A stretch of DNA of 64,000 bases from Zygnema cylindricum (Eukaryota; Streptophyta; Zygnematophyceae; Zygnematales; Zygnemataceae), in the NCBI GenBank assembly GCA_037447655.1, contig JBBHKE010000339.1, positions 248,001 through 312,000 of the forward strand, read 5' to 3'. How positions within the stretch are numbered: position 1 is the stretch's first letter; each line of letters opens with the position of its first letter. Positions 22,052 to 58,133 of the stretch are shown here, in pieces. The notes under the pieces are model-generated. The model saw only the letters and a program-made list of their open reading frames with translations, searched no databases and was not told the origin of the DNA. The position numbers and the translations under genes are program-made.

Positions 22052-23610
22052 AGCAGGGTTTTTTATCACACATGCTTTTGCTTTGTTGCCCAACTCCTGT
22101 TCTGCCCTAGATCCATGGCGAGACGGAGCACTAATTCTTTTCCTCTCCTCACAAAATTTTCGACTAGACACTACATCCGAGGACGAGGAACGAGTAAAGA
22201 AAAAGGGCTAAAAATAATCTTTGGTTAGGTGGATCGCTAGTTTGATTGTTAGCGGATAGTAGTCACAGGGATGTGCCTCACTTGATTGAACGCCTCTCGC
22301 TGATTGAACAAATTCACACCGAGCTGGGTCATTATGGGACCAAGCGCACCTTAAGCTTGTTGCAGGCACGCTATTGGTGGTCTGGGATGCAATCTGATGT
22401 CGCAGCGGTATTGCACAAGTGTGCCATATGTGATCCTCTACGTACCTCTTTTAGCAACCTGCAGACTACCCTCCAACCATTACTCATCAAGGGGTTATTT
22501 TACCGCTGGTCGTGCAATTTGGTGGGTCTTTTTCCCATATCTCGGAGGGGGAAACAATATACAATGATCATGATTGAGAATTTTAGCAAATGGGTTGAAA
22601 TAGTAGCGTTACCACACAAAACTACAAAGCTCACCACCGTCGTTTTTAAGGAACATGTCCTTATGAGATACGGCGCTCCAGCCGAAGTCCTCACAGATCA
22701 AGGGACTGGATTCCAAGGAGAATTCTAAGAAATGCTAGATGACGCTCTCATAGACCATCGTCGAACAAGCCGCGATCATCCACAAACTGATGGATTGGCG
22801 GAACGTGGAGTTCAGACCTTCAAGCGGGCATTACGCAAGCATTGCTTGGAAAAACATATAAAAGTGTGGGACGAGTCACTTGGCTATATTGCAATGGGGT
22901 ATCAAATGTCGGTATAGGCGAGTCTTTCTAATTTCAGTCAATACTATGTCTTATTTGGGCGTCAACCCTTGTTGGGTAGGAATATCCAGAAAGCCGCAAG
23001 CTTTCCGCTTCCCTTACTGTCTAACGGGGTTTTTTTGGAAGAACTTACTAACAGAGCGATGTTTTTTGCCCGAGAGATGCCCATGGCTTTTGACAACCTG
23101 CAGATCGCCCAACACCGAGATACTTTCTGCTTTGCCACTACACGCAGCTGCAGCTACCTGCCTTAACAGAAGCCCTACCGAGTGGGAGATTATGTCTACT
23201 TACGGCGTCTATCCTTCAATACCTTGAACACAAATGTTTCACCTCATATTCTCCGAATTATCGAAGTAGACACGAATAGCATGCTAGGACTTCAAGGAGC
23301 AGATACGCGAAACTTTTGGGAGCATTTGAAGAACTATGCTCCATGTTATTTACGAGATCTTTCCCAGGACATGGACCCTATGCGTATGCTTATCATTGAG
23401 GCTACAGAATACACACTTTGCAACCGAGCCGATGGAGAAACATCAATGCTTCTATGCGACCATTGCAACCAAGGATTTCACATGGAGTGTTTGGTTCCTC
23501 CGTTAATAGCAATTTCAGACGGTCATTGGTTTTGTCACGGCTGCCGAGAGTTAACAGTCGTATTGGCCAGCTCTTTGGCAGACTCTTTGGTAGACTAAAG
23601 AGCCTGGGGG
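22052..23610 (+). pseudogene. Gypsy integrase with PHD finger, element G2 fragment
   Basis: The RNase H-integrase linker (about 22080-22245) and an integrase are in one frame from 22246. HTELGHYGTKRTL...HKCAICD forms the HHCC zinc domain. The core follows, with DxxG-like NLVGLFP at the first Asp position (Asp changed to Asn), TDQGTGF and DGLAERGVQTFK. A C-terminal PHD finger lies at 23410-23555 (CNRADG...LLCDHCNQGFHMEC...WFCHGC). Stops at 22726, 22915 and 23164, plus one near 22237, replace Gln/Arg-like codons. The linker is in frame with integrase, which shows that the frame break at the same place in G1 is a one-base deletion. Everything upstream of the linker is missing. Confidence 0.82.
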
Positions 23611-23856
23611 GGGAATAAACTGAGCCTCCTAACTTCCTCTCTCACCCTACCTTTATTATTCTTATGATATGTTTTGCTCGCTGCTTGTACATATTTATTT
23701 TCACTTGTTTTTTGAGATGTTCATGACTTTCTCGCTTATTTATTTATCATTTATCTTTCAGTTGGTTATGTTGCATGTTTATCATTATCGTTGTCACATG
23801 CAGGACATGTTGGTGACATCGAATGTAATGAGTACAGCAGTGAGCTGTGCGATTTT
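23611..23856 (+). other. G2 3' region after the polypurine tract
   Basis: A G-run (CTGGGGGGGGGAATAAAC) follows the stop. About 200 bp then align loosely with the 188-bp segment at 51560-51747 of G1 and end CACATGCAGGACA. The next bases, TGTTGGTGACATC, may be the start of a G2 LTR, cut at 23856 by the insertion of C2. Confidence 0.5.
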
Positions 23857-37384: not shown

Positions 37385-38285
37385 GGTTAAGGGCCCACCC
37401 TCTAGGGTGCCCACCTTCAATGGATCTGGGTTCATCTATTGGGAAGCCATGATGATGGGAGCTTTGTGTGAAAAACGATACTGGGGTATCGTCAGTGGAC
37501 AAGTGAAACGTCCACCTTCGGGAACTCCACCAGGATTTGGGGGAGTAAGGTTTCCTGCAACAATGGCTGCCACGGTGGAGGAGGTAGATGATGGGGACAG
37601 CAGTGTGTCCGAAAAGGGGAAAGGGAAGGAGACACCCCTCACTCCTATTGCCACTGTATCGAAAGCGGCAACCGTGAAGACCGTGGAGAACGTTACTCAA
37701 ATGTGGGAGGATGTAAACATGGCTGCCAAGAATCTCATTCTGAGGCACCTCACTCAAGGTTCGGCCACTCCTCATCTTCACATTTACAAGGCCGAGGAGT
37801 TGTGGGTGATTTTGGTGGAGATTTATAGAGCTAGAACTATTCAGGAGCTCCAGTTGGCTGAGCAAAAGCTGGTGAGTTACACTTACAAAGGAGGAAAGAT
37901 GTTAGATTACTGTAATGATCTTTCTTGTTTGTATATAAAAATGGAAAGTGCTGGGTGGATAGGTAAAATGAAAATGAAAGTTAACACCCTTATCATGAAA
38001 TTACCAGATGAGTTCGAAAACATAGTGTACCGAGTACAGGGAATGCCTGATAGTTCATGGAAATAGAACACAGTAGTCAGGATGATACTTGTGCAGGAAA
38101 ACACAATGGAGATTAGGAGAGGAGGAAAGAGCATTCAAGCTCTAGCATCAGGAGGGGACTGATGGGCGAAGGACCCAAAAAAACCTTATAGAGGGGAAAG
38201 AGATCATTCTAGGGGACAGAGGCCCCCAAAGGGTCTTTGTCATTATTGCAAAAAGCCGGGACACTTTATTGCAGATTGTGTCAAG
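37365..38285 (+). pseudogene. Copia gag of C4
   Basis: The start ATG lies in the LTR: MEDTEFQVKGPPSRVPTFNG, with the LTR boundary after the second base of the Gln codon. The Gag core follows, with FIYWEAMMMGALCEKRYWGIVSGQ, AEELWVILVEIYRARTIQELQLAEQKLVSYTYKGGKMLDYCN and KLPDEFENIV. Stops are at 38064 and 38160. The zinc knuckle CHYCKKPGHFIADC is at about 38238-38280. Known role: particle formation and RNA packaging. Confidence 0.86.
37385..37402 (+). promoter_or_regulatory. Primer-binding site of C4 inside gag
   Basis: GGTTAAGGGCCCACCCTC has one mismatch in 15 to the complement of the iMet anticodon arm. It encodes V-K-G-P-P-S. Confidence 0.75.
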
Positions 38286-40144
38286 TTGTCAGAGCTGAGG
38301 CTCCAAGAGAACCGTGGAGGGGGTTCTTCCGGAGGGAAGAAAAAGACACTTGTGGTTACAAAAGTGTCAGGAGAAACCGAGGATGAGTCCTCTGAGGAGG
38401 ATGGGGAGCTTCTTCTTGACGAGAGTTTGGAGGAGAAGGAGATTCCTTGGAGGCAGAAGTGTGCCCTTGGAGCAATCCGGGAAGCTCCACAAGAAGGATG
38501 GATCATCGACTCAGGTGCATCCATGCATATGTGTCGTGATAATGAACTCTTCACTAAGTTAAGAAAGATTCCTACTATAGAGATAAAGTATGGGGATGGG
38601 AGAGTGGTTACTACAGATCTAGTGGGATCAGTAGATCTGAAAGTTTTAGTGGAGGGTAAGACTTCTATACTTACATTCTCAGATGTACTTTACATTCCTC
38701 AGCTGAGTAAAAATCTTTTCTCTACGTCTGTGTTAGATGACAAAGAGTTTGATACCTTCACCAGAAAGGGAGTCTTTACAGCTAAGTATGGGGATTAAGT
38801 TTATTTGACAGCAGATAAGGGTAGCCAAGGAATGTTTAGGCTTAACCTGAGTAATGAAAAGAAGAATGCTTACTATGTTGGTGTTCCTAAGGTGATGATT
38901 TGGCATAAGCGGTTGGGGCATGTGCATTTTGATAGGTTAAGGGAAATGAAAAAGCTTGGGGTAGTAGATGGCATTCAGTTTGGGGATAATGAAATGATGG
39001 ATGATTGTAGTGGTTGTGCTCAAGGTATGGCTCACAGACTTCCCTTTCCTAAAGCCGCCACATATTGAGGTGAGAAAGTGTTAGATTTGGTCCACACAGA
39101 TATTTGGGGACCTGCAAAAGTACCTTGCATTGGGGGAAACAGGTTTATGATGACAATAACTGATGACTGGTCTAAATACTCTAGAGGCTACTTTCTGAAA
39201 ATAAAGTCTGAAGCATCAACTTACTTCAAATAATATAAAGCTTGGAGTGAGAAGTTGCATGAAACCCCCATTAAGAGGATAAGGAGTGATAATGGGGGGG
39301 AATATACCTCTAACGAGTTTTAGGAATATCTACAAGATGAGGGAGTGCAGCACCAGAAAACTGTACCATATAACCCGGAACAAAATGGGGTAGCTGAGAG
39401 GTTGAATCGAACACTAGGAGATAGTGCATGCAGTATGTTGGCAAACAAGAAAATAGGAAAGAGATTTTGGGCAGAAGCAATGTATGTGCCAACTACATTA
39501 AGAATATAGTCTTTACCTCAGCTGTAAAGGGAGTGACACCTTATGAAAGATGGGTTGGAAGGAAACCAGATATCTCACACCTTAAAGTATTTGGTTGCCA
39601 AGTTTACAGTCTTTACACGGATAGGAAAAACTGGAAACTAGATGCTAAGGGAAAACCTGGATACTTTGTGGGATATGATGAGGATGTTAAGGGATATAGA
39701 GTCTATGACTTAGCAAAGAAAGATATCATTCTGGTCAAACACTTAGTTTTCATGGATGAAGGGAAGTCATTTGACCCCTTCAAATATACAAAGAAGATAA
39801 GGATCAGATTTGAGTCCGAAAGTGAAGAGAACTTTGTCGTTCCCGAAAAAGACATGGGTGAAATCATGATGACAGACTCAGGGGAGATCCAAGATACAGG
39901 AGACGCACCGGAAACCTCACATACTCCTATGGACTTCGAGGAGATAGAATAAGTGGGACAAGAACCGGTTTCCATGGACAGGGGAGCCGATGAGACAGTG
40001 AGAAGAAATCCAAGACTTCCATCCATTCTTGCTTCAGAGTTGGAGGGAGGAAGGAGGAGCAGCAAAAGATTACAGGAAAAACATGCCGCTCATAAGGTAA
40101 CTAAGCTATCTCACCCTGATGAGCCTTAGTCTTACTCGGAGGCA
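38286..40144 (+). pseudogene. Protease and integrase of C4
   Basis: The protease WIIDSGASMHMCRDNELFTKLRKIP is at about 38500-38575, in the open frame 38286-38798. HHCC is at 38805-39068. The integrase core continues with HTDIWGPAKVP, RSDNGGEYTS and EQNGVAERLNRTLGDSA, but with stops at 38796, 39066, 39231 and 39321. A one-base deletion near 39482 (compared with C2) changes the frame to 39428-39952, which holds VTPYERWVGRKPDISHLKVFGCQVYSL and the acidic hinge. Further stops are at 39950 and 40127. Confidence 0.85.
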
Positions 40145-40588
40145 GTGAATAGTCTAGAGAAAGAAAGATGGATTAGAGCTATAAATGATGAGATGGCTTC
40201 TATCATGGAAGCAAATACTTGGGAACTAGCAGATTGTCCTCCAAACAGAAAACCTATTGGGTGTAAATGGTTATTTAAACTAAAATTGAACCCAGATAAT
40301 ACCATTGAGAGATATAAGGCTCGATTGGTAGCAAAGGGGTTCACCCAAAAAGAGGGGATTGACTATGAGGAGACCTTTGCTCCAGTTGTTTGGTTCCCAT
40401 CAGTAAGGATTCTCCTCAGTCTGGCAGCAGCGGAAGACATGGAGATACATCAGATGGACATCAAGACTTCTTTCCTCAATGGTGAGTTAGTGGAAGAAAT
40501 TTTCATGAGACAACCCGAGGGGTTCGTGGAAGAAGGAGAAGAGAGCAAAGTCTGCATGCTCATAAAGTCCTTATATGGACTAAAGTAG
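40145..40588 (+). CDS. RT N-terminal part of C4 (open 147 codons)
   Basis: [57 protein letters not shown] and MDIKTSFLNGELVEEIFMRQPEGF are typical copia RT motifs 1-3. It ends at TAG 40586-40588, where Gln of LKQAPRQW is expected; the same frame continues to 41713. Confidence 0.85.
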   Translation: MNSLEKERWIRAINDEMASIMEANTWELADCPPNRKPIGCKWLFKLKLNPDNTIERYKARLVAKGFTQKEGIDYEETFAPVVWFPSVRILLSLAAAEDMEIHQMDIKTSFLNGELVEEIFMRQPEGFVEEGEESKVCMLIKSLYGLK

Positions 40589-41713
40589 GCTCCCCGACAG
40601 TGGAATAAGAAACTAGATGAGTTTTTTACCAGTCTGGGATATATCTATATCAGCTCTGACCATTCTATCTATATGTTTGAAGATGAAAATGGTGTCATTT
40701 TTATTGCAATTTATGTGGATGATTTGCTTGTGTTGAGTAAATCCTTGGAAAATATCAATAAGTTAAAAACAGAACTTAGAAGCAGATTAGATATGAAGGA
40801 TTTAGGGGAGGCAAAATATATTTTGGGGATTCAAATGGAAAGAGATAGGGGGAAGAAGTTTATCAGACTTACTAAGAAAGAAGCAATAGGTAATATGCTT
40901 GAGAAGTTCCAGATGGAAAATGCTAACAGTTGTACCACTCCTATGGACTTGAAAAAAATAAGTGATGGGAGTGTAGAAAGAGGAGTGTTGATCTTAGATG
41001 ATCAAATGAGTACAGAAGAGAGAGAGTTTATGAAGACAATCCCTTATAGACATGTCGTAGGAAGTTTAATCTATTTTATGAACTGTACCAGGCCGGACAT
41101 AGCGGCAGCAGTTGGAGTACTCAGTAGGAGTCTTAATGATCCTAAAAAGAGGGATTGGGAAGCAGCTAAGAGAGTCATGAGATATGTGGTAGGAACCAGA
41201 GAGTTGTGGTTGCATTTGGGAGGGGAGCACACTGACATCACTACTTGGAGTGATGCCAATTATGGGGACTCACCTATGAGACGATGCACTTCTGGGTATG
41301 TGTTGTATGTTGGGGAAGGTGCATGCTGTTTGAGCAGTAAGCATCAAAATGTGGTTGATCAGTCCACTATGGAGGCTGAGTACATGGCCTCTTGTTCTGT
41401 TGTGAAAGAGTTGATGTGGGTCAAGTCCTTGCTGCAAGAACTGCGGTATATGAAGAAGGGAGTGCATGAAGTGTTCTGTGATAATCAAGCGGCCATAGCA
41501 ATTGCAGCCAATCCAAAACATCATTTTAAGGCTAAACATATAGACATAAGATTAAGTTTTGTAAGAGAAAAAGTTGAGAATAAAATAGTGAATCTTGTAT
41601 ATAGATGTGATGAGGAAATAATAGCGGACATGATGACCAAACCTGTGCCCTCACCAAAGTTAAAATACTGTAGGGAAAAATGTGGATTAAAAGAAAAATT
41701 AAAAATAGACTAG
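40589..41713 (+). CDS. RT catalytic part and RNase H of C4
   Basis: Open from 40589 (APRQWNKKLDEF) to the stop at 41711, with the first Met at 40673. It holds YVDDLLVLSKS (about 40711-40740), KDLGEAKYILGIQMERD, PYRHVVGSLIYFMNCTRPDIAAAVG, and RNase H with WSDANYGDSPMRRCTSGYVLYVG, QSTMEAEYMASCSVVKELMWVKSLL, CDNQAAIAIAANPKHHFKAKHIDIR and IADMMTKPVPSPKLK. This is the longest intact RT-RNase H stretch among the C copies. Confidence 0.9.
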   Translation, partial: APRQWNKKLDEFFTSLGYIYISSDHSIYMFEDENGVIFIAIYVDDLLVLSKSLENINKLKTELRSRLDMKDLGEAKYILGIQMERDRGKKFIRLTKKEAIGNMLEKFQMENANSCTTPMDLKKISDGSVERGVLILDDQMSTEEREFMKTIPYRHVVGSLIYFMNCTRPDIAAAVGVLSRSLNDPKKRDWEAAKRVMRYVVGTRELWLHLGGEHTDITTWSDANYGDSPMRRCTSGYVLYVGEGACCLSSKHQNVVDQSTMEAEYMASCSVVKELMWVKSLLQELRYMKKGVHEVFCDNQAAIAIAANPKHHFKAKHIDIRLSFVREKVENKIVNLVYRCDEEIIADMMTKPVPSPKLKYCREKCGLKEKLKID

Positions 41714-41726
41714 AGAATAAGGGGAG

Positions 41727-42158
41727 TGTTGAAATAAGTAGTTTTTTTTGTATTTTCTAGGTCTAATATAAATTAGCAAAAACATATATAGAAAATGATG
41801 GCAACCTGCCTCTATCTCTTCTCTCTTTCACCCATACTTGTTGTAGTCACTGAAGGAGAGAGAGAGCAATGGAGCCATGGCTGCCTCAGCTCCATAGGAA
41901 GGACTAAAGAGTGACTTAAGTCACTCTCAACAAAAGGTTGAGTCCGGCAAGACTCGAACCCCCGATCGGTAGAGCGCGGCGTAGCCGTTAGCTCTAACTA
42001 GTCTGTCGTAGAAGTCTGTTAGATGATATAGGGTTTCATTCATATTTAAACTATTATACTATACTGAAATGATTTAACAGCAATATGAACGAAACGAACA
42101 TAGAACTTGTTAAGGTTTAGTGCGAACGTCATTTCGCACGAAACAAATGATACGGACA
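41727..42158 (+). repeat. 3' LTR of C4, left part
   Basis: It follows the polypurine tract AATAAGGGGAG (41716-41726) and matches the 5' LTR from 36376. A tRNA-like module lies at 41937-42010. It is broken at 42158 by G1; the right part is 52815-53387. Confidence 0.92.
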
Positions 42159-43034
42159 TGTCATGCCGCATCTCGTCGGCCATTTTAGTTTTTTATATTT
42201 AGGTGTTAGGAAGGGCAGCCGCTACACTAATTTGTATTTGGGTATTATTTGGGTTTCGCAGGACCGTACGACGTGTACCGTACGACCTACATTTTCCGTG
42301 ATTTTCGCCGACGGCGGATTTGATTATTTCGCGTCGACCGTACGACTTACGTCGACCGGAATTCCCGCGGCCACAAATTGGACCGTACTTGCGGTCCTGC
42401 CGTACTTATTTATTTTTTCCGGATTTCTCGCTGACGACACATTTTCGAATCGCGTCGAGACAAACAAACTTACCGTACTATATATATTTTGCGCGATTCT
42501 TGCCGACGGTAGCTTTGATCATTTGACGCGACCGTACGACTTATATTATCCGGAATTCGCGCGACGACAAAGTGGACCGTATCTGCGATCCTGCCGTACA
42601 AGCTTTCATTTCCTTGAATCCCGGCCGACATCAGATTTTAATCATTTCGCGCGGAGTAGCATCTCGACCGTCGACGCAAAGTATACGATTCTCGTAATAT
42701 CTCATCTTGACCGTTGACGCGTGTGACAGACAAAGATACTGTCAGTTCTGACGAAGCTACGCTATTGGACTATTTTAAGTCGTGAACCATTTGGAGGTTC
42801 ACGCATTCACATGTAGATAGGAAGGGTTTTAATCCGTAGGTTATAGATTCTGTAACGTAGGGCATAGGATTTCGGCTTCCTATTGGCTGAATCCAAACTA
42901 GACGCAAATATTTACATTGCACGCTGTACTCTGATTGGCTTGTTTTCGCTAGGCGTAGTTTTGGTTACTTAGTTCATTTCGCATCATTTCCTGCACACAA
43001 TTTTCAAGTGCAAGAATTATTCATTTGATTTATT
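42159..43034 (+). repeat. 5' LTR body of G1
   Basis: It matches 51750-52626 over 876 bp with few differences. It holds two diverged direct copies of a block of about 110 bp (42300-42410 and 42493-42605), rich in CCGTACGAC and GTCGACCG palindromic words, probably in U3. The match to the 3' copy ends at GATTTATT. Confidence 0.85.
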
Positions 43035-44385
43035 TTCAGTATCGAGGATTCTCTGCAGCCATCTTTTTATTTGTAAAATTGTCCGGATAGCTTAGAGGCG
43101 ATTTTCTGCCTTTGCGTGAAGCGTCTAGTTTTCTATTACATTATCAATATCTTGTAAAGCCTTACAAATTAATCTATACGGCTTCGGCCAAGACCTACAC
43201 GGTTTCCCTTCACTTTTCTCGTCCTTTTGGGTGGATTTCGACCGCGATCTCACATCACAAACTTCTTTCCCCGGCTGTGGCTGAATTTTAATTAGTGTGG
43301 AAGTTGCATGTTGGGATTATTGATTTGTGGTTTTGTTTCTTGAGATTGTGTATTTATTTCTATTTGGCTTTTGCGCATCTTTTGAGTTTGGTTATCTCAA
43401 ACCTCATAAGTGTCGGGCATATTGTCATTTTCGGTTTTTATTTATCTTTCTCGGTTGTTTATGCTTTGATTTATTCTATTTAAGTATAAATTCAGATTAT
43501 CCTTGATAAGATAACTCCTGCAAGGAATATAAATAGACCGTGGGGCCTAGTGGTCATCCATCGGCTTAGTATTCCTGCACTTGAAAATTGTCTTATTTTC
43601 TTTTCTCGCTTGTTTGTTTTTCTTTCAATTTCGGTTTTCTTTTTATTCAAAGAAAAAAAATATATATATATATATATATATATCAAAAATATATATTATA
43701 GGTACATTTCTACAAATATCTATAACTAGCTTTACATTTATAATTACCATTTGCTAGTTAGTTGACGTCTTATCTTATTGGCCAATTTTCGGCCAAGGAT
43801 ATACTACACTAACTTAAGTATTTGGTTTTTGTTTTCCCCATTTTCTTTGTTATATGTCTTGAGCATCGTTTGCTCACATTGAGACATACTTCACTAAGAG
43901 TGGAGTTAGTGGAGCGGATCCGTTCTTGGGAGCTCTCCAAAACTTTGGTTATAGCGAACAACCGTGTTCACCCTTGGCAATCACCAGATTGCTAAGAGTG
44001 TTATGTAAGTATCACGATGCCTTGCGGGTACAGGCGCGTGTTAAGGTAGTCGGTTGATCGCATAGAGGGATCGTGTTTGGAGTGGATTAGTGTTAATCCA
44101 CTTGTATTGAGCACTGCATTTGTCCAGCTTTCCTTGCTTGCTATCTGGCCCTGAGTGGCCTTGGCTGAGTTTGCTCTGCCCGAAGTGGGATTTCTTCCAT
44201 AGATCTTGCCGTTGGAGGCATTGGTTAGCACTTTTGTGGATTGTGTCGCTTTAGATCTGCACTTGGGAGTGCTTGGATAGTAAGTTATTTGCCTTTATAG
44301 ATCTGGCCCTTCGGCCTTGTCCCCTTGTTTGCAGGGTAGAAGGTTTTGGTAATACCGCTTCCTGATAGATCTGGCCATCGAGGCC
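43035..44385 (+). other. G1 leader (rest of 5' LTR and/or untranslated region)
   Basis: No coding sequence and no convincing primer-binding site. A 21-base stretch at 43571-43591 is the reverse complement (20 of 21) of 42997-43017 in the LTR body. An (AT)n run lies at 43663-43682. The LTR may extend into this part, but the 3' copy lacks it, so the boundary is unknown. Confidence 0.5.
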
Positions 44386-45528
44386 TTGTTAGAGATTGAT
44401 TGGCTGATTGGACAAAAGAATGGTGTGGCCTGGCATTTGAAGCATATCGGAAAGATCGGCTTTGTTATCTGGTCATCATTTGGTGTTATCATTTTTATGC
44501 CCACCGATTGGGATAATCTTGATTATCCTGTCAGAACCACTCGATCGTCGGCCTCGTTTAGGCCCACGGAGTCCGGACCATCAGATTTTTCTAGTCTTTT
44601 GGACCATCCTTTCCTAAATATTTCGGGTCAAATTTCCCCTTCGGTTCGATCTACTCTCACCTCGGTATCTTCCTTATCATCAGTCTCTTCCACATTTTTC
44701 GAAGAGGAATCTGACCACGATTCCCTTGACGGGTTGAATTCCGATTCACTATCTTTTTGGTTTCCACAAATTATCAATCCAGTTTTATCCCCTAGCATTC
44801 CGTTATTGGAAATGGCTTCCACATCCGAGGGAGGGGGGCGCCTTCATTTCTGTTTTCCAGGAATGAAGGACACCATGACTTTATCGCATTTTCGCATGCT
44901 ATTCGATACCGAAATGCGTGATCTTGCATTTCGGTACCAAGATCGGTTTGACCTACGGGTCGCTTTCTCTCTTTTAGGTCGTTAACTTCGCGGTTCAGCC
45001 CTTACTCTTTATTCTCGCAAGTATGATTCAGTACTTGCGATGACGGAGTTTTCTCCAGCGTTCGCTGGGAGTCCTGCTATTACAAGACAACCAGAAATTC
45101 CTTATCAACCGGCTATCCCTGAAGTCCTTGATCTCAAAGGCAATGTTATTACAGCAGCAATTGCGGAAATAACGCAACAGTTCGCTATAGCCGCACGTGC
45201 TGGAATTCCAGCACGACCAGCGATGACTATCCCTATATTGGATCCGCTCTCTGTCATGTTTGAAATGTTGCAAGCGGAATACCATATGCAAAACCCTGAC
45301 CAAGTTCGCAAGTTAATGAACTTCGAACGGAAGTCAGGAGAGACCGCCCCTGCCATGCGTGCTCGTATGGAAGCTCTTCGGGAAGCATTGCCGGACTTAA
45401 TGTCGGATGCTGAAGCTGTCCAAAAATTTGTAGGACAGTTTCCGAGTCAGTCTAAGAAATTTATCCAGAGTCACCTGACTCAAATGTATGGCTTGAAGTT
45501 CACTTTCGACTAAGCCGCCGAGCATGCC
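44386..45528 (+). pseudogene. Gypsy Gag of G1
   Basis: One frame with stops at 44983-44985 and 45511-45513. A Ser-rich acidic N-terminal region precedes a Retrotrans_gag-like core (LRGSALTLYSRKYDSVLAMTEF, then FEMLQAEYHMQNPDQVRKLMNFERKSGETAPAMRARMEALREALP and a terminal FPSQSKKFIQSHLTQMYG). The last block is the typical MHR-like end of the capsid region. The first Met at 44386 is the earliest in the frame, but the true start could be at 44500 (MPTDWDNLDYP) or further upstream. It continues in frame into the zinc knuckles. Confidence 0.78.
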
Positions 45529-47103
45529 GTGGAATACGAAATGCAAAATTGTTGGTGGGAAGCCCATGACCGACCTAAAGCGGTCCCGAAAAAACCGATT
45601 GTTCCACCATGGAACAATCCTCGTCCTAACAACCGGCCTCCTAAAGTCCCGGCCATGGGAACCCCACCTGTTGCTCCTAGAAACCGATTATGTTTTCGAT
45701 GTGGGAAGACCGGGCATGATGCCCGAATGTGTCCAGAAAAAACTGCTACCTGTACACATTGCAAGCAAACCAGACATTATGTCCATCGTTGTCATATAAA
45801 AAACTCGGAATATTCCTATCAAAACCAAATTAAGAGTGGTGGCATCCCAGCTCGATCCGCAAGACCGGCTCAACCGGTTAAAGAACCGGAAAGAGACACC
45901 ACTCCCCCTAAGGTATCCCGAAGAGAGAGAGAGCGTTTAGAAATGCAAGAGCAAATGGCGGCTATGATGAAAGAACAATTCGCAGCTTTCATGACCCAAA
46001 TGAAGCCACAATTTACAGGCATGGCTCGCACTGTTGTCCACATGCCCACGTTGGCAGGTCGAATCTTACGAGATTCCACCATCCAACAACGAGAGGCTAC
46101 GTTCGACAAAGGTTCGACCGATCACAATCGTGACGGTAAAACCCCTAACACACGTATTCCTTTGTCATTCACTAAAGAACCTTCTCCTCCTTTGCCCGAA
46201 AACGCTTCAGCCATCGCGGGTGAAGCTCTCAACATAGTGGATCGAACTATACATGAGGCACACCGCGTGAAAGAACGCTTGTGCATTCTTTCCGCTATGA
46301 TTTCCGACTCACCGAAAATCTCCCCTATCTCCTTACTCTCCAATAGCTTGGCTGCAGTTGCCGCGTTACAAGCACTTCAGCTGCACAGAAATCTTGCTGC
46401 TATTCAGCCTATTTCCATAGAGGAGCGAAAGTCTCTCGATCCTCACATCAATTTTTTGGATAATGCGAAGGGTGCATTGTTGATCAATGGTATAGCCCCT
46501 TCCCTGCCTCTCATGGATACCGGTGCAAAGCCGGTGATATTGGGCTCTGGCTTTGCACTGAAGCTTGGTCTAACTCCGGACAAGCTTCAGTCCACTTCTA
46601 CTCGCTTGTTAACATCAGCGGGTAGAACCGAACCGGTCCTAGGAATCACTAAGGAACCGCTTGTTTTCAGGTTCCAGAACGAAACGTCCACAGACTTTGC
46701 TGAAATCTCGGTTCACGCTCTAATCACTAAATGTAGTGACGATGAATGCCTAGTGGGACAGGACGTTATATTTCGTGTAGGGGGTGGTGTTGACATGCAT
46801 GATCAGACATTTTCCTATAGGCCCACTAGCTTCCCGGAACGCAAAATCTGCATTCCGCTAATTTCCGCTAGGAAGCCCATGCCTATTATGGCAAATTCGG
46901 CCACCTCTATACCTGCATTTTTAGGGAATTCGGTGGGTGCCGAAATATTTCATTCATTGTCAGCAGAAGAAATTCTGCCCGATAGTTCTTACTTACCAGA
47001 AATTTTCAGTGACCCAGGTTTTCTTATAGATCGAGGGAATTTGACCGGATCTATAACCAAACCTTGTCAATTCCACTTTCTCCGGTCTCTTCCCCAATCC
47101 TAG
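45529..47103 (+). CDS. Gag zinc knuckles and aspartic protease of G1
   Basis: An open frame of 524 codons that continues Gag. Two zinc knuckles, CFRCGKTGHDARMC and CTHCKQTRHYVHRC (residues about 55-90), bind RNA. A basic, Met/Gln-rich linker with a coiled-coil look (RRERERLEMQEQMAAMMKEQF) follows at residues 120-160. The protease is at about residues 315-430: LLINGIAPSLPLMDTGAKPVILG holds the DTG active site, with a second block ECLVGQDVIFRVGG. After this comes a region of about 90 residues without a recognised domain. It ends at TAG 47101-47103; the methyltransferase lies in the -1 frame and overlaps by up to about 90 nt. I see no canonical slippery heptamer, so this may be a mutation rather than programmed frameshifting. 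Confidence 0.85.
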   Translation: MEYEMQNCWWEAHDRPKAVPKKPIVPPWNNPRPNNRPPKVPAMGTPPVAPRNRLCFRCGKTGHDARMCPEKTATCTHCKQTRHYVHRCHIKNSEYSYQNQIKSGGIPARSARPAQPVKEPERDTTPPKVSRRERERLEMQEQMAAMMKEQFAAFMTQMKPQFTGMARTVVHMPTLAGRILRDSTIQQREATFDKGSTDHNRDGKTPNTRIPLSFTKEPSPPLPENASAIAGEALNIVDRTIHEAHRVKERLCILSAMISDSPKISPISLLSNSLAAVAALQALQLHRNLAAIQPISIEERKSLDPHINFLDNAKGALLINGIAPSLPLMDTGAKPVILGSGFALKLGLTPDKLQSTSTRLLTSAGRTEPVLGITKEPLVFRFQNETSTDFAEISVHALITKCSDDECLVGQDVIFRVGGGVDMHDQTFSYRPTSFPERKICIPLISARKPMPIMANSATSIPAFLGNSVGAEIFHSLSAEEILPDSSYLPEIFSDPGFLIDRGNLTGSITKPCQFHFLRSLPQS

Positions 47104-48150
47104 TCCCTACAGACTCTTCTGGGTTTCTTCCCATTGATTGGAATCCGGTCCAATTGAAACCTCATCCAAATGGATTAGTGATTTTGGACCTTTTTGTTGG
47201 AATAGGCACTTCTCTCTTGGCATGTTTGCGGAATGGATTATTAATCCGATTTTATTATTCGGTGGAGATTGATCCGTTAGCACGGAAAGCACAATTACAT
47301 CATCGTAATCTGTTGCATTCCCAATGCCCGCATTTGTTACCAAAATCTGCATACGAGCATATGCATACTGCCCTCCCACAAGACATTCGGATTGTGGGCA
47401 ACCATCACTTACTGGAGATTGGTCCAATCGATCTAGTTTTTGGCGAATAGGAGTGCCAGGGAATGTCTCGGGCCGGGAAAGGTCTCGGATTAGCCAATCC
47501 CCGCACCAAATTATTTTTTGAGTTGATTCGCATCCTGCATTTTCTACAAACTTTAGATCATCATATAGGGTACATCTTGGAAAATGTCGCTGCCTATAAT
47601 GATCCAAGACCTACGGTTTTGGCTGATTATCAACGAATCGAACAATTAATTGGACCGCCTCTTATTATTGACGCGGCTCGCCATGGTTGACTAGCACACC
47701 GGGTTCGCTCCAAATGGACAAACCTGATCGATATTGGTAGACTCCGCGAGGCCAACTTGTTAGTTCGTCCTCCTCCTATAACATTCAGGCTGCCCTTCTT
47801 CCTTTTCATAAGGTGCAGCCTTGCATTCAAAAGGACTGTCCCCCTAATTTCAGTGTCAATGTCCCGGGTCAACCTCTCAAGGTGCTTCCTACCTTAGTTT
47901 CTTACCCACATTCACATGCATTCTCTAATGACGGTCCTGGCATGCTCCGAAACATTCATACCGGTGAGCTCGAAGAGCCTACCTCTACGGAACGAGAACA
48001 CCTAATGCATTTCATTCCCGGCACTACTGCCGCTCCTGGTCTTACTGAACGTCAAAGATGCACTTTATTAGGTCGTGTCATGGACCCTCAGTCTTTGTCT
48101 TTTGTTTTAGGTCTTGGGTTTGCAGCTGGTCGCCACTCTCAGGCACATCC
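47064..48150 (+). pseudogene. DNMT3-like cytosine-5 DNA methyltransferase domain in G1
   Basis: Seen in order: motif I VILDLFVGIGTS (47175-47213; AdoMet binding), motif II-like YSVEIDPLARKA, motif IV region ECQGMSRAGKGLGLANPRTKLFFEL (47451-47525; catalytic Cys in CQG), motif VI ENV (47580-47588), motif VIII-like IDAARH and LAHRVRSKW (about 47670-47715), and a target-recognition/motif IX-X region ending TERQRCTLLGRVMD (48040-48080). Known: C5 methyltransferases use motif IV Cys, motif VI Glu and motif VIII Arg to methylate cytosine. LLGR plus the spacing resembles DNMT3 more than DNMT1 or Dcm, and the motif order is not the rearranged one of plant DRM. Broken by TAG 47448-47450 (just before CQG), TGA 47688-47690 and a frameshift near 47800. 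It lies between protease and RT, so it was made as part of the polyprotein. Confidence 0.88.
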
Positions 48151-50194
48151 GTCTCAACCAGCTGGGGGGGGGAATGCATCACTAAGAAAATCTTTCCGTC
48201 CCACTCTCCAAGGGACCACATTTCAATTTTTCCTCTTTCCTTCTCCAATTCCACCAGTTCCGGAAATCTCTGTCTACGATTTCCTCAATCCTAGCCATAT
48301 GTCCTGGTCTATTCCCGCATATACGGCTGTCCAGTCTACAAGTCCCATGCATATTCCACCCACTCCTCATTGGAGTGCTGCTTTTCCAACACGCAGTTGG
48401 AATCATTCGGTTAATTGCCTTAAACAGACACCTGTAGCTTACGAGTTAGGTCAAACGCTTATCGCAGATGAGCAGTTGGCCTTTGCACAAGCCATGGAAG
48501 CTATGACGACCGAAAATCCTGATGCTCCTAAATGGAAATTCGGCACAAATCTAACAAAGGCCGAACAAGAGTTACTGAATGACGTAGTTTTACGAAATAT
48601 CGATGCCTTTGCCTTTTCTATGAATGATTTGGGTCGTCACACTGCTTATAAAATGTCGATAGATCTCGAAGATGATCGCCCTATATTTAAACCGAAACAT
48701 CGTTTGTCAGAAACTGAATGGGAAATGGTAGACAAGCGATGTGCTGAACTAGAGGAAGCTGGCCTAATCTATCGGTCAGACTCCACATTTGCAGCTCCCA
48801 CTGTCATGCCTCGGAAAAAAGATTCCGAGGGAAATTTTACTGAACGTCGAATGTGTGGTGACTATCGTGAACTAAATGCTAGAACAGTTCAAGATCGTCA
48901 TCCCATGCCTCTTGCCGAAGAAATATTTGATCATGTAGGCGGAGCAAATTATTTTAGTATCCTTGACCTCCGTCAAGGATTCAATCAAATCGAGATAGAG
49001 TAAAAAGACCGGCATAAAACTGCCTTTTGGGGTAGCGTTGGCCGATGGGAATGGGCTGTAATGCCATTCGAACTGAAAAATGCTCCGGCAGTATTTCAAA
49101 AAGTCATGGACTCCGTTCTTGGAGGCTGTAAGTTTGCTAGATGTTACATCGATGACCTTATCATTGCCTCGGCTACTATCGAAGAGCACGCTGCTCACAT
49201 CGAATGGGTATTGACTGAATTGAAAAAGGTCGGATTAAATTGTCATCCAGCGAAATGCACCTTTGGAGCCGAGGGAGTGCCTTACCTCGGCCATTTTATC
49301 TCGGCTGAGGGGATCACTCCTCTCGAAGCAAAGGTAGAGGCAATCAGTAAATTGCCTGCTCCCACGGACCTCACCAGTCTACGAGCTTTTCTCGGACTTG
49401 CTAATTATTATCGCAGGTTTGTATCTAATTTTAGCACCATCGCATCTCCGTTAAACGACCTTCTTAAGAAGGAAGTGGCGTTTATATGGGGTCCCGATCA
49501 GATTTCCGCATTTCAAAAATTAAAAACCGCTTTATCAAGTGCCCCAATTTTCTGTCCTCCCAATCACAAACTCCCTTTTTGTCTTCAAACAGACTTTGGG
49601 AAACCCGGAATCGCTGCCATTTTGACACAAAGAGAGTTGAGCGGAGAGGAATACGTAGTTGCTTACGCGAGTAGAAGCAATAACCGGGCCGAATCAAATT
49701 ATAGTAGCTACGAGAGAGAGTGTCTAGCCGCTGTTTGGGGAGTCGTTCACTTCCGCCATTATTTGTACAGAAAACCTTTCACACTCTTAACTGACCATCA
49801 GCCCTTACATTGGCTGATGACGAAGGATAAGCTTTCCGGGAAGTTAGCCCGATGGGCTTTAATCTTACAAGAATATGACGTTGAAATAATTCACCGACCA
49901 GGTCTGCTTAGTCTAAACGTAGACGGAATTTCCCGAAATCCTTTGCCCCGAACAACAGATAACGGAGTTCGACAAGATTTCGATGACGACGATGTTCCCG
50001 TCATGCCAATGGGTTCTTATCTTACTTACTGCCTGGCGTCTATTCCGAACCCCCGTCCCGCCACAGATCCTTGGCGTGATGGGCCTCTCATTCTTTTCCT
50101 ATCCTCCCAGACCTTCAGGTCCGGCACCACCTCTGATGAAGAAGACAGAGTGAAAAAGAGGGCCAAAAGTTACCTTTGGCTCAGGGATCTTTAG
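48151..50194 (+). pseudogene. Gypsy RT and RNase H of G1
   Basis: The frame from 47813 runs through the methyltransferase end and a Pro-rich linker into RT (about 48640 on). MCGDYRELNARTVQDRHPMPLAEEIFDHVGGANYFSILDLRQGFNQIEIE is followed by a single TAA at 49001, then FELKNAPAVFQKVMD, the catalytic YIDDLI (about 49147-49165) and the thumb. RNase H (about 49575-49930) has LQTDFGKPGIAAIL, SSYERECLAAVW, LTDHQPLHWLM and LARWALILQEYD. The frame ends at 50192. Apart from the one stop it is intact. Confidence 0.9.
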
Positions 50195-51273
50195 TTCGGT
50201 TGTTGGCAAACGGAAGCCATAGGCACGTTCCACGGCCTACCGAGCGTCTTTCTCTCATTGAGCAGATTCACACCGAGCTTGGTCAGTACGGTACCAAGCG
50301 AACGTTAAGTCTAGTTCAGGCACAGTATTGGTGGTCAGGAATGCAAGCTGATGTCGCTGCTATTCTGCACAAGTGTGCCACCTGTGACCGTCTCCGAACT
50401 TCTTTCTCTAACCGGCAGACTACGCTTCAACCTCTACCTATTAGAGGTTTGTTCTATCGATGGTCGGTCGATTTGGCTGGACCTTTTCCTATCTCACGTA
50501 GGGGTAAACAATATATCATGATTATGATTGAAAATTTCAGTAAGTGGGTAGAAGTCGTAGCACTACCTCACAAGACCGCTAAGTTAACTACCGCAGCTTT
50601 TAAGGAACATGTCCTTATGAGATACGGTGCCCCAGCCGAGGTCCTAACGGATCAAGGTACAGAATTTCGGGGAGAATTTCAAGAGATGCTTGATGAGGCT
50701 CTCATCAATCATCGTCGTACTAGTCGAGATCACCCCCAGGCCGATGGCCTGGCTGAACGAGCAGTCCAGACATTTAAGCGTGCCTTGCGTAAGCATTGCT
50801 TAGAGAAACACATTTCGGTTTGGGACGAGTCCCTTGGTTACATTACCATGGGATATCGCATGTCGGTTCAGGCTAGTCTGGCTAATTTCAGCCCGTATTA
50901 TGTTTTATTTGGGTGACAACCATTGCTCGGTCGCAATATTCAGAAGGCCGCAAGCTTCCCACTTCCGCTGATGTCTGACACTATTTTTTTGGAAGAACTC
51001 ACTCGTCGTGCTTTGCTTTTTGCCCGTGAAATGCCCATGGCTTTTGATAACCCGCAGATTGCCCAGCATCGGGACACACTTCGGTTTGCCACCACTCGCA
51101 GCGGCAGTTACAAGCCGCAACAGAAGCCCTATCGGGTGGGAGATTATGTTTATCTTCGCAGGCAATCTTTTGACACTTTGGACACGGATGTTTCTGCACA
51201 CATCCTACGGATTATCGAGGTGGATCCGAACGGGATGTTAGGATTACAAGGAGCGGACACACGGACTTTTTGA
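50176..51273 (+). pseudogene. Gypsy integrase of G1
   Basis: The zinc region HTELGQYGTKRTL...LHKCATCDRL lacks the second His (GQYG; G2 keeps GHYG). The core has SVDLAGPFP, LTDQGTEFRGEF and DGLAERAVQTFKRALRKH (the D,D,E triad). A C-terminal part with QQKPYRVGDYVYLRRQSFDTLDTDVSAHILRIIEVDPNGMLGLQGAD is an SH3-like GPY/F-type region. Stops TGA at 50914 and 51271 interrupt one frame that continues into the PHD finger. The break from RNase H is a one-base deletion near 50185, judged against G2. Confidence 0.88.
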
Positions 51274-51540
51274 GAGCACTCCAAGAATTGTGCTCCATGT
51301 TACTTACTAGATTTGTCGCAGGATATGGATCCTATGCGTATGCCGATTACGGAGGCGACGGCATGTACCTTTTGTCATCGATCGGACGGGGAAACCACCA
51401 TGTTACTTTGTGATCATTGCAATCACGGGTTTCACATGGAGTGTTTGGTGCCACCTTTATTGGCGGTTCCGGACGGTCACTGGTTTTGCCACGGATGTCG
51501 TGAGCTACCGGTCGTGTTGGCCAGCTCCTCTGCCGGCTAA
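51274..51540 (+). CDS. C-terminal PHD finger of the G1 integrase
   Basis: CTFC-x11-CDHC-x4-H-x2-C-x14-CHGC (51364-51500) is a complete C4HC3 PHD finger with the conserved Trp two residues before the seventh ligand (GHWFC). It is in frame with integrase and ends the polyprotein at 51538-51540. Known: PHD fingers read histone H3 tails. Inference: it replaces the chromodomain of chromoviruses for target choice. G2 carries the same finger. Confidence 0.88.
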   Translation, partial: EHSKNCAPCYLLDLSQDMDPMRMPITEATACTFCHRSDGETTMLLCDHCNHGFHMECLVPPLLAVPDGHWFCHGCRELPVVLASSSAG

Positions 51541-51544
51541 AGAG

Positions 51545-51559
51545 CTGGGGGGGGGGATA
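51545..51559 (+). promoter_or_regulatory. Polypurine tract of G1
   Basis: A run of ten G followed by ATAA lies just after the PHD stop. G2 has a similar nine-G run at the same place. Confidence 0.6.
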
Positions 51560-51747
51560 AACCGACCTAACCATAACCAACTAAGTCGTTGACCTTTCTT
51601 TTCCTTCCACCTTGCCTGTTGTTGTATTTATCCATTTTTACTTTTGTGTTATATTTTATTTACGAGATCTCGCTATTATTTGAGTTTAAGTTGAGCGCAG
51701 CTTATGATATTGCATGCACCTTCATGTTATTTGACACATGCACGACA
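51560..51747 (+). repeat. 188-bp segment S, first copy
   Basis: AACCGACC...CACGACA. It lies between the polypurine tract and the TGTCATG start of the LTR body. It is repeated almost unchanged at 52627-52814, the extreme 3' end of the insertion. Confidence 0.9.
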
Positions 51748-51749
51748 GC

Positions 51750-52626
51750 TGTCATGCCGCATCTCGTCGGCCATTTTAGTTGTTTATATTTAGGTGTTAG
51801 GAAGGGCAACCGCTACACTAATTTGTATTTGGGTATTATTTGGGTTTCGCAGGACCGTACGACGTGTACCGTACGACCTACATTTTCCGTGATTTCCGCC
51901 GACGGCGGATTTGATTATTTCGCGTCGACCGTACGACTTACGTCGACCGGAATTCCCGCGGCCACAAGTTGGACCGTACTTGCGGTCCTGCCGTACTTAT
52001 TTATTTTTTCCGGATTTCTCGCCGACGACACATTTTCGAATCGCGTCGAGACAAACAAACTTACCGTACTATATATATTTTGCGCGATTCTCGCCGACGA
52101 TAGCTTTGATCATTTGACGTCGACCGTACGACTTATATTATCCGGAATTCTTGCGACGACAAAGTGGACCGTATCTTCGATCCTGCTGTACAAGATTTCA
52201 TTTCCTTGAATCTCGGCCGACATCAGATTTTAATCATTTCGCGTGGAGTAGCATCTCGACCGTCGACACAAAGTATGCGATTTTTGTAATATCACATCTG
52301 GACCGTCGACGCAAGTGACAGACAAATCGACTGTCAGTTCTGACGAAGCAACGTCATTGGACTATTTTAAGTCGTGAACCATTTGGAGGTTCACGCATTC
52401 ACATGTAGATAGGAAGGGTTTTAATCCGTAGGTTATAGATTTTGTAACGTAGGGCATAGGATTTCGGCTTCCTATTGGCTGAATCCAAACTAGACGCAAA
52501 TATTTACATAGCACGCTGTACTCTGATTGGCTTGTTTTCGCTAGGCGTAGTTTTGGTTACTTAGTTCATTTCGCATCATTTCCTGCACACACTTTTCAAG
52601 TGCAAGAATTAATCATTTGATTTATT
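51750..52626 (+). repeat. 3' LTR body of G1
   Basis: 877 bp matching 42159-43034. It includes both internal repeat blocks and ends at GATTTATT, where it joins segment S' instead of the leader sequence found at the 5' end. Confidence 0.9.
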
Positions 52627-52814
52627 AACCGACCTAACCATAACCAGCTAAGTCGTTGACCTTTCTTTTCCTTCCACCTTGCCTGTTGTTTTATTTATCC
52701 ATTTTTACTTTTGTGTTTTTTTTTATTTACGATATCTCGTTATTATTTGAGTTTAAGTTGAGCGCAACTGATGATATTGCATGCACCTTCATGTTATTTG
52801 ACACATGCACGACA
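52627..52814 (+). repeat. 188-bp segment S', second copy at the G1 end
   Basis: A near-identical copy of 51560-51747. Its terminal CACGACA abuts the GACAT duplication and the resumed C4 LTR. Confidence 0.9.
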
Positions 52815-53387
52815 GACATTTGTTTTTAACGGTCGACATTTAATGTCGGATTTCATCCGACGGCGCACATCATCGCCGAGATCACGGAATGGTCACTTTG
52901 GATTTTATGGACGTGGCATGACGTGGCGCCGCGTGGAAGGATGAAATTCGGTCGCGGGTATTCCGGAGAATATACAAACGAGTGGAAAAATGACACGCGT
53001 CCACTCAATAGCCTTGTCGTACACCGGCCATATAGAAAGTACATCGGCCGTAGTACCTTTCTGTACTTTACAGTAATATGATTGGTTCGTACTTTAGTAG
53101 ATAGGGGTTGTGAGAGGGATTTAGGACTTAGGAAATTTTGGTAGATAGAGACCTCTCTCTCTAAGAGAGCCTTGTATAAATTGGCATTTTTGCCGGCTCA
53201 CGGCTGGTTGGCCGTTTTCATTGATTCTTTTTGCTACGGACTCAGGGGAGTCCAAGCTACACAAGGAAGCAGTCAAATTGTCAGTTTGCCTTTTTGGGCA
53301 GCAGTGGTTGTGGCTTAAAGTGGGTTAGTTAAATACTATCTAGAGGCTTCTTGTATTCTGTGGTCTAATGGAGGACACAGAATTTCA
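52815..53387 (+). repeat. 3' LTR of C4, right part
   Basis: It continues the LTR interrupted at 42158 and matches 36803-37384. It ends ATGGAGGACACAGAATTTCA, the first codons of gag, followed by the AAAAT duplication. Confidence 0.92.
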
Positions 53388-53400
53388 AAAATAAGGGGAG
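53388..53400 (+). promoter_or_regulatory. Polypurine tract of C2
   Basis: AAAATAAGGGGAG, restored C2 sequence after the C4 insertion, directly before the C2 3' LTR. Confidence 0.8.
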
Positions 53401-54410
53401 TGTAGAAATTAATGGTCCATTTAAAGTATTTTCTAGGTCTAAATAGAAATATAGAAAAAGCCGAGGCAGTCTACCTCTAACTTCTCTCTCCAACTTCTCA
53501 AACTTGTTGTTGTCACAGAGAAATTGGTGAGGAAGCTAGATCCATGGCTACCTAGGCTATCCAAAGGTTTACGGGAAATATATATATTAATTTATTTACC
53601 GTTAGAGGTTTATTTACTAAAAGGATATGTGCTGCCCCCAGGATTTGATCTTGGTACCTGCCGGACGGTAAGCAGCCGGTAGCCGGTCGCCTTATCTGTT
53701 ATGTCTAGACCTAGTGTTACGTACTATTGTGTTTGATATTTACTTATACATTACCAAAAAGGATATTCCATTAAACTGAAACTATTTACGGGATACATAG
53801 ATTTAGTAATGTAAAAGTACGGATTGTGGTACGGATATAGAAATGAATACCGCGCATTTGTTTCTTTAGCGAAACGAATACCGCGCAGGTATTTATTACA
53901 GCTACAATTAAATGTGAATTTAATCGGACGGTCGGAATGAACATCGAGATCGCGGAAGAGGATTTTGGCGGTTTGTCGTCATTGCCACATTGGATGACAC
54001 GTGGCGGAATAACATTGGATTGCGGCATCTCCGAGGATTAAGGGAGCAAATCCAGATATACCACGTGTCGACATTTAGGCCATGTCGTACAATGTCCGTA
54101 CAAAAAGTACACCAGCAGCTGTAGTTTTGTGTACAGAAGTGGAATATGATTGGCTCCGTACATCAATAGATAGAGTCTGTGAGAGAGATAGGACTTAGAA
54201 CAATTAGGAGATAGGACCCTCTCTCCCAGAGAGCTTCTGTACAAAAGGTCAACTTTGACCCTCCATAACTTACTGCTCATGGGAGAAAATTCAAAGATTC
54301 TTTTTGCTATCAACTCAGGGGAGTCTTGCCTTCACAAAGGTGAAGGTGGTTAGAGTTTTTGTCTGCCAGGGTAGCAGTTGTTCTTGCTGAAACACAAAGG
54401 GGTCAGAGTT
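53401..54410 (+). repeat. 3' LTR of C2, 3'-truncated
   Basis: It matches 23857-24820. A tRNA-like module lies at 53632-53710 and GTAC motifs at 54085-54165. The last 75 or so bases, including the gag ATG, are replaced from 54411 by unrelated sequence, so no target duplication can be checked. Confidence 0.85.
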
Positions 54411-55865
54411 CGGGCTTTGTGAACCTGAGTGGTCGGTTTCGCGCATTGGGAGGGATCCACGTCCCCCACCCCATCATCATTTCGTTTTACGATGTGTCGC
54501 ACCTCGCGGCCATAAAAATGTGTATATATGTTTAGGGATTTTAATTTTTTGTGTTTTTGTTTATATTAAAAAAACAAAATCACATAGTAAAAATTCCTAA
54601 ACTTGCAAACCATAATCAGATACCAGGTAGGTATTTTGTGGTGGTGAAACTTACGGGGCATTTCTAACGGTGAACCGAGGGGGACATATTTGGTTGGAGG
54701 TCGGGTTCCGTACAATTGAAATCGGAAAGAATGAATGAAAAACTGTACCGAAGAACTACTCTCGCGGGGAGTGGGGGAGGAGTTGGTTGATTTTTTTTTG
54801 GCAACCAAACGTCGCGTCAATATATAGCGATACAAATTATTGATAAATCAAACCGATATATGGGTAAAATATAACGAAATTGAGGTTCCACATGTATCAA
54901 TTATCGGGTTCCCAAAAATAGGTACAGAAAGTTTATCGGTAGAGGGATCTCAACACACAACACTAGTAATGAGACTAAGGATATCTCCTATGAGATATGG
55001 CAATAACATGTTTAGTAACGTCGAATACAACGGCTGCTTGGCTATCTTGTGAAACGACACTGTGAAGACGAATTATGGACGATGTTCACAAAGGGTAAGG
55101 TCCAAAGACTGCGAAGAAAAAACTATCACGGCACAAAAGGGGTCAAATAAAATGAATAAAAGTAACTAATAAAATTGTAAATAAAGAATCACGGCACAAA
55201 AAAAGAACGCTAAATTCAACTCCGAGGTAAGTAAACACCAAAAATAAATAACACTACAAAAGATAGATCACAAAAAATGAAAAAACCTACAGTATATGAC
55301 TACCCATAACCCTACAATTTAAAATCCACACACGCAACTAACGTGGACGTGGACTCAATCCGTAGGAGGATGATCTAAGAGGACCCGCCTATCATTTCCC
55401 ATCGCGATCCACCGAAGAAGAGCCCTAGGATGCTCTCGTTGAAGGGCAATTAAGACAAGCTCATGGTAAAAGGCTTGATCGAAGATTCAAATGTTTTTCA
55501 CGCACAATTGCACAGGAAATCGCCAAATGACTTCACCAAAAGGCTAACAATCTCCCACGCAAATGGGATAAACAACTTTGCTTGTTCTTAGTGAGTAAAA
55601 TCTTATTCCTTAAAAGCGATTGAGTCTTAAGCCATCACCCTCGTAAGCAATGGCGCACGAGATAAAACGATGGTCATAGTCATATCAATGAGGATTCCCT
55701 CACCTATGGTCCTCCCAAACCGTAGAGCAAAACCAAGTCATTTGGGGGACTTCTAACACGATAACAATCAGACATTTAGAAGGAGAGGGTGAGGGAAACC
55801 CTAGCGTAGACGTAAGGAATACGTAAACACGTTAGACAAAGTGTCAAAAATGTCCAAGTGTTAAT
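54411..55865. other. Unassigned DNA
   Basis: No element or gene recognised. The longest open frame, 54840-55052 (70 codons), has no recognisable motif. The stretch 55330-55850 has somewhat higher GC but no long frame on either strand. Confidence 0.4.
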
Positions 55866-56854: not shown

Positions 56855-56868
56855 CTCCCCTTATTTTC

Positions 56869-57660: not shown

Positions 57661-58133
57661 CGATTAAATCCGACATTAAATGTCGGCAGTCAAAACAAAT
57701 GTGTGATTCGTTTGTTTCGTGCGAAATGACGTCCGCACTAAAACTTTAAATAGTTTTATGTTCCTTTGTTCATATTTTAGTTAATCGGTTTCAAGCCCAT
57801 GTACAAGTTTAAATACGTATCAAACCCTATGTATCTTAACGCACTTCTACGACAGACTGGTTATAGCTAACGGCTAAGTCGTACTTTACCGGTCGGAGGT
57901 TCGAGTCCTGTCGGACTCAACCTTTTGTTGAGAGTGACATAAGTCACTCTTTATTCCTGTCTGTTGAACTAAGGCAGCCATGGTTCAACCACCCTCTCTA
58001 TCCTTTAGTGACTACAACAAGTATGGTGGCTAGAGAGAGGAGGTGGAGGCACGCTGTCCGCCCTTTCCTTTTTCCTTTTTATACTGATATATTTAGACCT
58101 AAAAAATACTCTAGAAATCTAGTAATTTCAACA
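57661..58133 (-). repeat. 5' LTR fragment of C5
   Basis: It matches 56396-56854 (the first part of the LTR on the minus strand) and ends TGTTGAAATTACTAG at 58133. A tRNA-like module lies at 57847-57922. The flanking 5-mers of C5 are TTAAT (55861-55865) and TCAAC (58134-58138), which is at best a decayed duplication. Confidence 0.8.

Follow-up and report, generated by a model that had tools for sequence, protein, structure and literature searches.

The 64,000-nucleotide window analyzed here, positions 248,001 to 312,000 of contig JBBHKE010000339.1 from the alga Zygnema cylindricum, contains a decayed retrotransposon that we call G1 (Table 1). G1 sits inside a copia-type element, recognized in Pfam by an RVT_2 domain at 40130-41710 (two pieces, E 5.9e-45 and 1.1e-23), which we take to be a copia marker. 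Two related copies within the window keep the target site uninterrupted, one at 36765-36850, with one base different, and the other on the minus strand of 56400-56490. The TG...CA ends and short target duplication expected of Ty3/gypsy elements are present in G1 (TGTC...GACA, with a 4-bp GACA duplication). Its order of protease (PR), reverse transcriptase (RT), RNase H (RH), and integrase (IN) is also that of Ty3/gypsy; in copia elements IN precedes RT.

To reconstruct what G1 once encoded, we aligned it by tblastn with an intact related polyprotein, P0003. The alignment formed a single collinear chain of four stretches: gag and PR (44803-46872, 29% identity), the first part of a cytosine-5 DNA methyltransferase (MTase; 47094-47765, 47%), the end of the MTase with RT and RH (47750-50248, 49%), and IN with a closing PHD finger (50140-51531, 57%). 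Each stretch contains two stops, and the frame shifts from stretch to stretch; G1 is a dead copy. Judged from its sequence, G1 is almost certainly a dead Ty3/gypsy copy with a gag-PR-MTase-RT-RH-IN-PHD polyprotein and a standing DNMT3-type MTase, of the kind described as KnitGypsy-Dnmt3.

Table 1. Features of G1 and of a second, truncated copy (G2); positions are those of the window.
Feature	Positions	Strand	Basis
Whole element G1, decayed, 10,656 bp, TGTC start and GACA end	42159..52814	+	Repeat ends, 4-bp target site duplication, empty-site homologues
Left target site duplication, GACA	42155..42158	.	Sequence comparison of ends
Right target site duplication, GACA	52815..52818	.	Sequence comparison of ends
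Repeat A copy 1 (A1), CpG-rich, 78 CpG in 876 bp, observed/expected (o/e) 1.81	42159..43034	+	96.2% identical to A2
gag, zinc knuckle, aspartic protease (MDTGAKP 46513-46533); stops 44983 and 45511	44803..46872	+	tblastn of P0003 residues 45-795; Pfam
MTase motifs I-VIII, frame 0; stops 47448 and 47688	47103..47765	+	PF00145 E 7.7e-8; 47% identity to P0003
MTase C-terminal third, DNMT3-like LLG block, frame 2	47750..48145	+	tblastn of P0003 and P0002; alignment
Reverse transcriptase and RNase H; stop 49001	48533..49978	+	Pfam RVT_1 1.3e-16, RT_RNaseH 1.6e-35; tblastn of P0004
Integrase (H2C2, rve); stop 50914	50140..51270	+	Pfam Integrase_H2C2 1.7e-13, rve 3.4e-13
PHD finger closing the polyprotein	51361..51501	+	PF00628 1.7e-11; PDB sequence matches
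G10 tract directly 5' of B1, probable polypurine tract	51547..51556	+	Sequence; role inferred
Repeat B copy 1 (B1)	51557..51747	+	95.3% identical to B2
Palindromic B1/A2 junction GACAGCTGTC, GACA-GC-TGTC	51744..51753	.	Both element ends joined, 2 bases between
Repeat A copy 2 (A2)	51750..52626	+	Repeat comparison
Repeat B copy 2 (B2), right end of G1	52624..52814	+	Repeat comparison
G2, 5'-truncated copy: integrase, PHD, G tract, B; stops short of MTase	22089..23807	+	74% DNA identity to 50045-51565

An earlier note, made from the letters alone, had named a series of MTase motifs together with a DTG protease motif, and all of these are present. In G1 they read LDLFVGIGT (47184-47210), ECQG (47451-47462), SRAGKGLG (47466-47489), and ENV (47580-47588), followed by AHRVRSKWTNL (47694-47726) and LLGRVMD (48065-48085), and the domain extends to about 48145. 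The catalytic Cys codon is retained. The PF00145 profile search proposed in that note gave E values of 1.4e-5 for 47451-47687 alone and 7.7e-8 for 47103-47798 with X at the stops, while 47013-47885, also with X at the stops, found DNMT3A as its best match among the sequences of solved structures (6.7e-9). These values place the MTase signal far above chance.

The description of the enzyme as DNMT3-like and unrearranged was also borne out. In G1 and its relatives alike, motif I precedes the other motifs, which rules out a DRM-like order with the C-terminal motif block ahead of motif I; motifs I, IV, VI, VIII, and X follow the canonical DNMT3 order, and both PF00145 and the predicted fold of the P0003 domain agree. 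The best-aligning stretch of DRM2 chains spans motifs I to IV. A first structure model of the MTase, built from four sequences (predicted local distance difference test score 58.9) and superseded by the model of the P0003 domain, had DNMT3 chains as its 50 listed structural matches; the absence of DNMT1 and DRM chains among the 50 matches listed for the P0003-domain fold (VIA-align) carries no weight. Identity to the catalytic domain of DNMT3A and DNMT3B is about 25%, and motif IV reads ECQ or PCQ in the G1 family, compared to PCN in DNMT3A. DNMT3A and DNMT3B possess PWWP and ADD domains, whereas Pfam lists neither in P0003. Part of type I (see below) has Glu where Pro normally precedes the catalytic Cys (ECQ): P0002, P0003, P0007, P0029, P0054, and G1 (47451-47462).

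We then considered whether the MTase was part of the element. The earlier note had argued that it was, on the grounds that MTase and RT share a frame, which is wrong as it stands for G1: PR lies in frame 1, the first two-thirds of the MTase in frame 0, and its C-terminal third in frame 2 with RT. In P0003, however, PR, MTase, and RT all share one frame, and it is this collinear polyprotein, together with the relatives that carry an MTase beside PR and/or RT (15 of 98 matches), that supports reading the MTase as part of a gypsy element and not as a later insertion. Chance motifs, or a host gene fragment inserted late, might be suspected from a domain that is interrupted and split between two frames, but P0003 and 23 more protein records place an MTase beside retroelement domains; we regard the idea as practically negligible and P0003 as ruling it out.

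The relatives came from two protein searches that yielded 4 and 109 matches. The search behind the 4, which used a longer length class, picked them from 1004; a first MTase-only search had given none among 218 candidates. We examined 98 matches (P0002-P0099) for neighboring domains and kept 15 weak others as an outgroup. Retroelement neighbors were present in 24 of the 98, some of these being gene models over decayed copies; the other 74 had no neighbor on their piece and were left untyped. Two architectures emerged. Type I, to which G1 belongs, has the MTase after PR and/or before RT (15/98), with weak PR scores (34 to 52 bits) in P0013, P0025, P0054, P0061, P0090, and P0097. Type II has it after RH and/or before IN (9/98). 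The PHD finger of G1 recurs in P0003, P0005, and P0090. In G1 itself, the Pfam zf-CCHC and Asp_protease_2 matches fell slightly below their curated cutoffs, and no phage-integrase domain appeared among the ten pieces scanned with Pfam, the rve integrase being present instead.

Our main tree held 44 rows: 30 of the 98 matches with broad MTase cover, the first MTase part of G1, and 13 outgroup rows, with P0043, P0105, and P0114 left out as long branches. All element MTases were set apart from the outgroup (support 100/100), and G1 grouped with P0003, P0002, P0007, and P0029 (97/87). The type II side (93/88) contained 12 rows, of which 4 were untyped, and the type I side (81/57) 19 rows, of which 11 were untyped. 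An earlier quick tree (47 rows, 31/98 matches) had supported the type II side at 98 and left type I rows unresolved. An approximately unbiased test was run on 8 labeled type I rows although unlabeled rows sit in the clade, and its result is not used.

This split, together with the difference in MTase position, could mean that related DNMT3 genes of hosts were captured twice, once for each architecture, and independent acquisitions were inferred by the authors for two layouts of dinoflagellate DIRS elements (PMC5890265). Between P0003 and P0004, however, MTase identity (40%) resembles that of RT (33%), RH (49%), and IN (46%), and both types include members with a PHD finger (P0003 and P0005). 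The sequences would fit one old capture that was later moved, and we hold two captures to be the less probable history.

One match, P0014, is filed as a DNA cytosine methyltransferase of a Candidatus Obscuribacterales metagenome-assembled genome. Because it sits inside the retrotransposon MTase clade, it is probably from a eukaryotic contig binned with a bacterium. Four IMG/VR loci (L001-L004), found by profile search and 28 to 40% alike, were rejected as viral relatives: only the MTase query pieces matched the DNA available for them, with no PR, RT, RH, IN, or PHD piece, and they were therefore taken for ordinary viral MTases. Scanning viral contigs with P0003 found no relative, nor did scanning genome contigs with A1.

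Six matches carry eukaryote names: P0047 (Cymbomonas tetramitiformis, type II), P0061 (Closterium sp. NIES-53, motifs IV and VI missing), P0075 (Riccia sorocarpa, C-terminal part), P0090 (Marchantia polymorpha Mp_7g09570, with PHD, motifs IV and VI missing), and P0097 and P0099 (Sphagnum jensenii, C-terminal part). These records are partial and so represent either decayed copies or gene models built over them. Klebsormidium nitens was absent from these six. The earlier note was right about its precedent, capture of C5 methyltransferases by retrotransposons in a charophyte alga and in dinoflagellates, which was described by de Mendoza et al. (2018, PMC5890265). KnitGypsy-Dnmt3 of K. nitens has, like G1, an unrearranged Dnmt3-type MTase inside a gypsy Pol open reading frame, and the Fig. 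4 legend of that paper gives it a DIRS-like repeat structure with typical gypsy domains. The note had left it undecided whether this was the same or an independent lineage. Shared gypsy domains and repeat layout mostly settle that the two are of the same kind, with K. nitens compared by its published description only; the word PHD does not occur in the main text of that paper, whereas G1 has the finger. SymbioDIRS-Dnmt3 of Symbiodinium resembles the G1 family in having Dnmt3 in Pol, split repeats, and two domain orders, but it uses a tyrosine recombinase where G1 has an rve integrase, and its acquisition was judged independent (PMC5890265). A 2025 paper names streptophytes and dinoflagellates and writes "LTR Copia" for what the 2018 paper calls Gypsy (PMC12344493). 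Among the titles and opening parts of abstracts in the open-access papers searched, we found no report of DNMT3-bearing gypsy elements in bryophytes.

Alongside the PHD finger, the split repeats are the second part of G1 that is new relative to the earlier note. The layout is A-coding-B-A-B, and a plain arrangement of one long terminal repeat (LTR) at each end with nothing outside was not found. G1 is therefore not classed as a plain LTR element; we file it as gypsy by its pol and with KnitGypsy by its layout. The A and B pairs have diverged to a similar degree. Split direct repeats are the layout of Ngaro elements, and DIRS/Ngaro tyrosine-recombinase elements share them with G1, which differs in its rve integrase, TG...CA ends, and 4-bp duplication. 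A later rearrangement, through a tandem or nested insertion, could be imagined, since the window has only one complete copy and G2 has a single B. Yet the whole of G1 is bounded by its 4-bp duplication, homologous empty sites exist, the two repeat pairs are of like divergence, and the order A-coding region-B-A-B, given for DIRS elements in PMC5890265, is described there for KnitGypsy-Dnmt3 as well. We consider such a rearrangement very improbable.

The windows richest in CpG across the whole 64 kb fall in repeat A, which has an o/e of 2.1 in its first 400 bases; the 12 top windows of 1263, against a median of 0.78, all overlap A1 or A2. Within repeat A are also direct repeats of 195 bp that have diverged and contain motifs resembling GACCGTACGAC. 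Between A1 and A2 (877 columns), there were 9 CpG transitions in 164 CpG positions compared to 10 in the other columns, which may reflect some CpG decay after insertion.

G2 matches P0003 residues 1886-2344 at 22171-23544 (tblastn, 53%, 5 stops), and the G-rich context before its B resembles the G10 tract before B1. Elsewhere, 13358-21169, 28872-42157, and 52819-57661 consist of densely nested, repeated elements, for the most part copia-type, that occur on both strands and are 66 to 95% alike. The copia assignment was checked by Pfam at 40130-41710 only; CpG o/e was 0.34 to 0.50 in three of four copia pieces. No tRNA genes or Rfam families were found in the window.

How might such a layout arise? 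B1 is immediately preceded by the G10 tract, A1 stops at the junction with the coding side, and the A2-B2 fusion looks as if the right end of a B+A repeat had been joined to its left end, all of which suggests that the LTR of the cDNA is B+A; the like divergence of both pairs suggests one common synthesis. We propose, at roughly even odds, that RT would make cDNA with an LTR of B+A, about 1,070 bp, that the cDNA ends would join into a two-LTR circle, and that integrase would open this circle at the internal palindromic B/A junction, integration then producing the A-coding-B-A-B layout, the TG...CA ends, and the 4-bp duplication. Alternatively, a DIRS-type route is conceivable. Foamy virus integrase reportedly cleaves a palindromic two-LTR junction (PMC1180852), which resembles our proposal in its substrate, but that palindrome is the LTR-LTR junction and the one in G1 would sit inside the LTR.

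For the MTase, we tentatively suggest, with somewhat less confidence than for the circle, that in intact relatives it would be packaged together with RT and IN and would methylate CpG sites on newly made cDNA, with the highest density in the CpG-rich LTR. The PHD finger, presumably reading chromatin marks, would direct the integrase or new copy to marked chromatin, so that the MTase would determine a copy's epigenetic state by the time of integration. Methylation of cDNA and disturbance of silencing had been put forward in the earlier note as possible functions. De novo CpG methylation was found for SymbioDIRS enzymes (PMC5890265).

Several observations weigh against these proposals. G1 itself is unable to make the enzyme, and constraint on the MTase is read from protein conservation only, not from ratios of nonsynonymous to synonymous substitution (Ka/Ks). 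CpG depletion, a possible trace of prolonged self-methylation and later deamination, is not seen in the G1 coding part (o/e 0.91; window 0.77). No tRNA-type (TGG) primer site was seen by eye after A1, and G2 ends in a single B, not B-A-B. The KnitGypsy MTase gave no methylation in a yeast test that its authors call inconclusive (PMC5890265). As to self-priming, A1 shares no exact run of at least 8 bases with the reverse complement of 43030-43075 (46 bases).

Alternatively, the MTase could act on the host or on RNA, either keeping copies few through silencing of the element and its kin or helping the host against other DNA, with selection on it indirect. A CpG-rich LTR is the expected silencing target of a CpG methyltransferase, the Discussion of PMC5890265 raises RNA methylation (for LINE elements) and benefit through lower transposition, and PMC6338049 raises defense. 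Position inside Pol beside RT, on the other hand, places the enzyme with the cDNA, though position is not proof, and we think this alternative rather doubtful. Taken as a whole, the identity of G1, an MTase acting on new cDNA, and the circle route make up what we judge likely to be the best overall explanation.

Compared with the kind as described in 2018, more hosts, a second arrangement of domains, and a better resolved anatomy are now at hand. With only a slim chance of being right in full, a broader picture would be a widespread family of integrase-bearing retrotransposons of the green lineage, from prasinophytes to liverworts and mosses, in which a single host DNMT3 uptake was kept with PHD, a DDE integrase opens the circle at the LTR palindrome, and the CpG-rich LTR is methylated before integration. 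Relatives of the DNMT3-bearing kind, earlier found in one green alga, now come also from more algae, liverworts, and peat moss, which brings the question within reach in model bryophytes, and the split-repeat anatomy suggests how an ordinary integrase might make use of a circle, a route that can be put to the test. DNA methylation is a main weapon of plants against transposons, and the G1 family itself carries that weapon; if the broader picture holds, such a retrotransposon would itself place epigenetic marks on each new copy it makes and read them as well.
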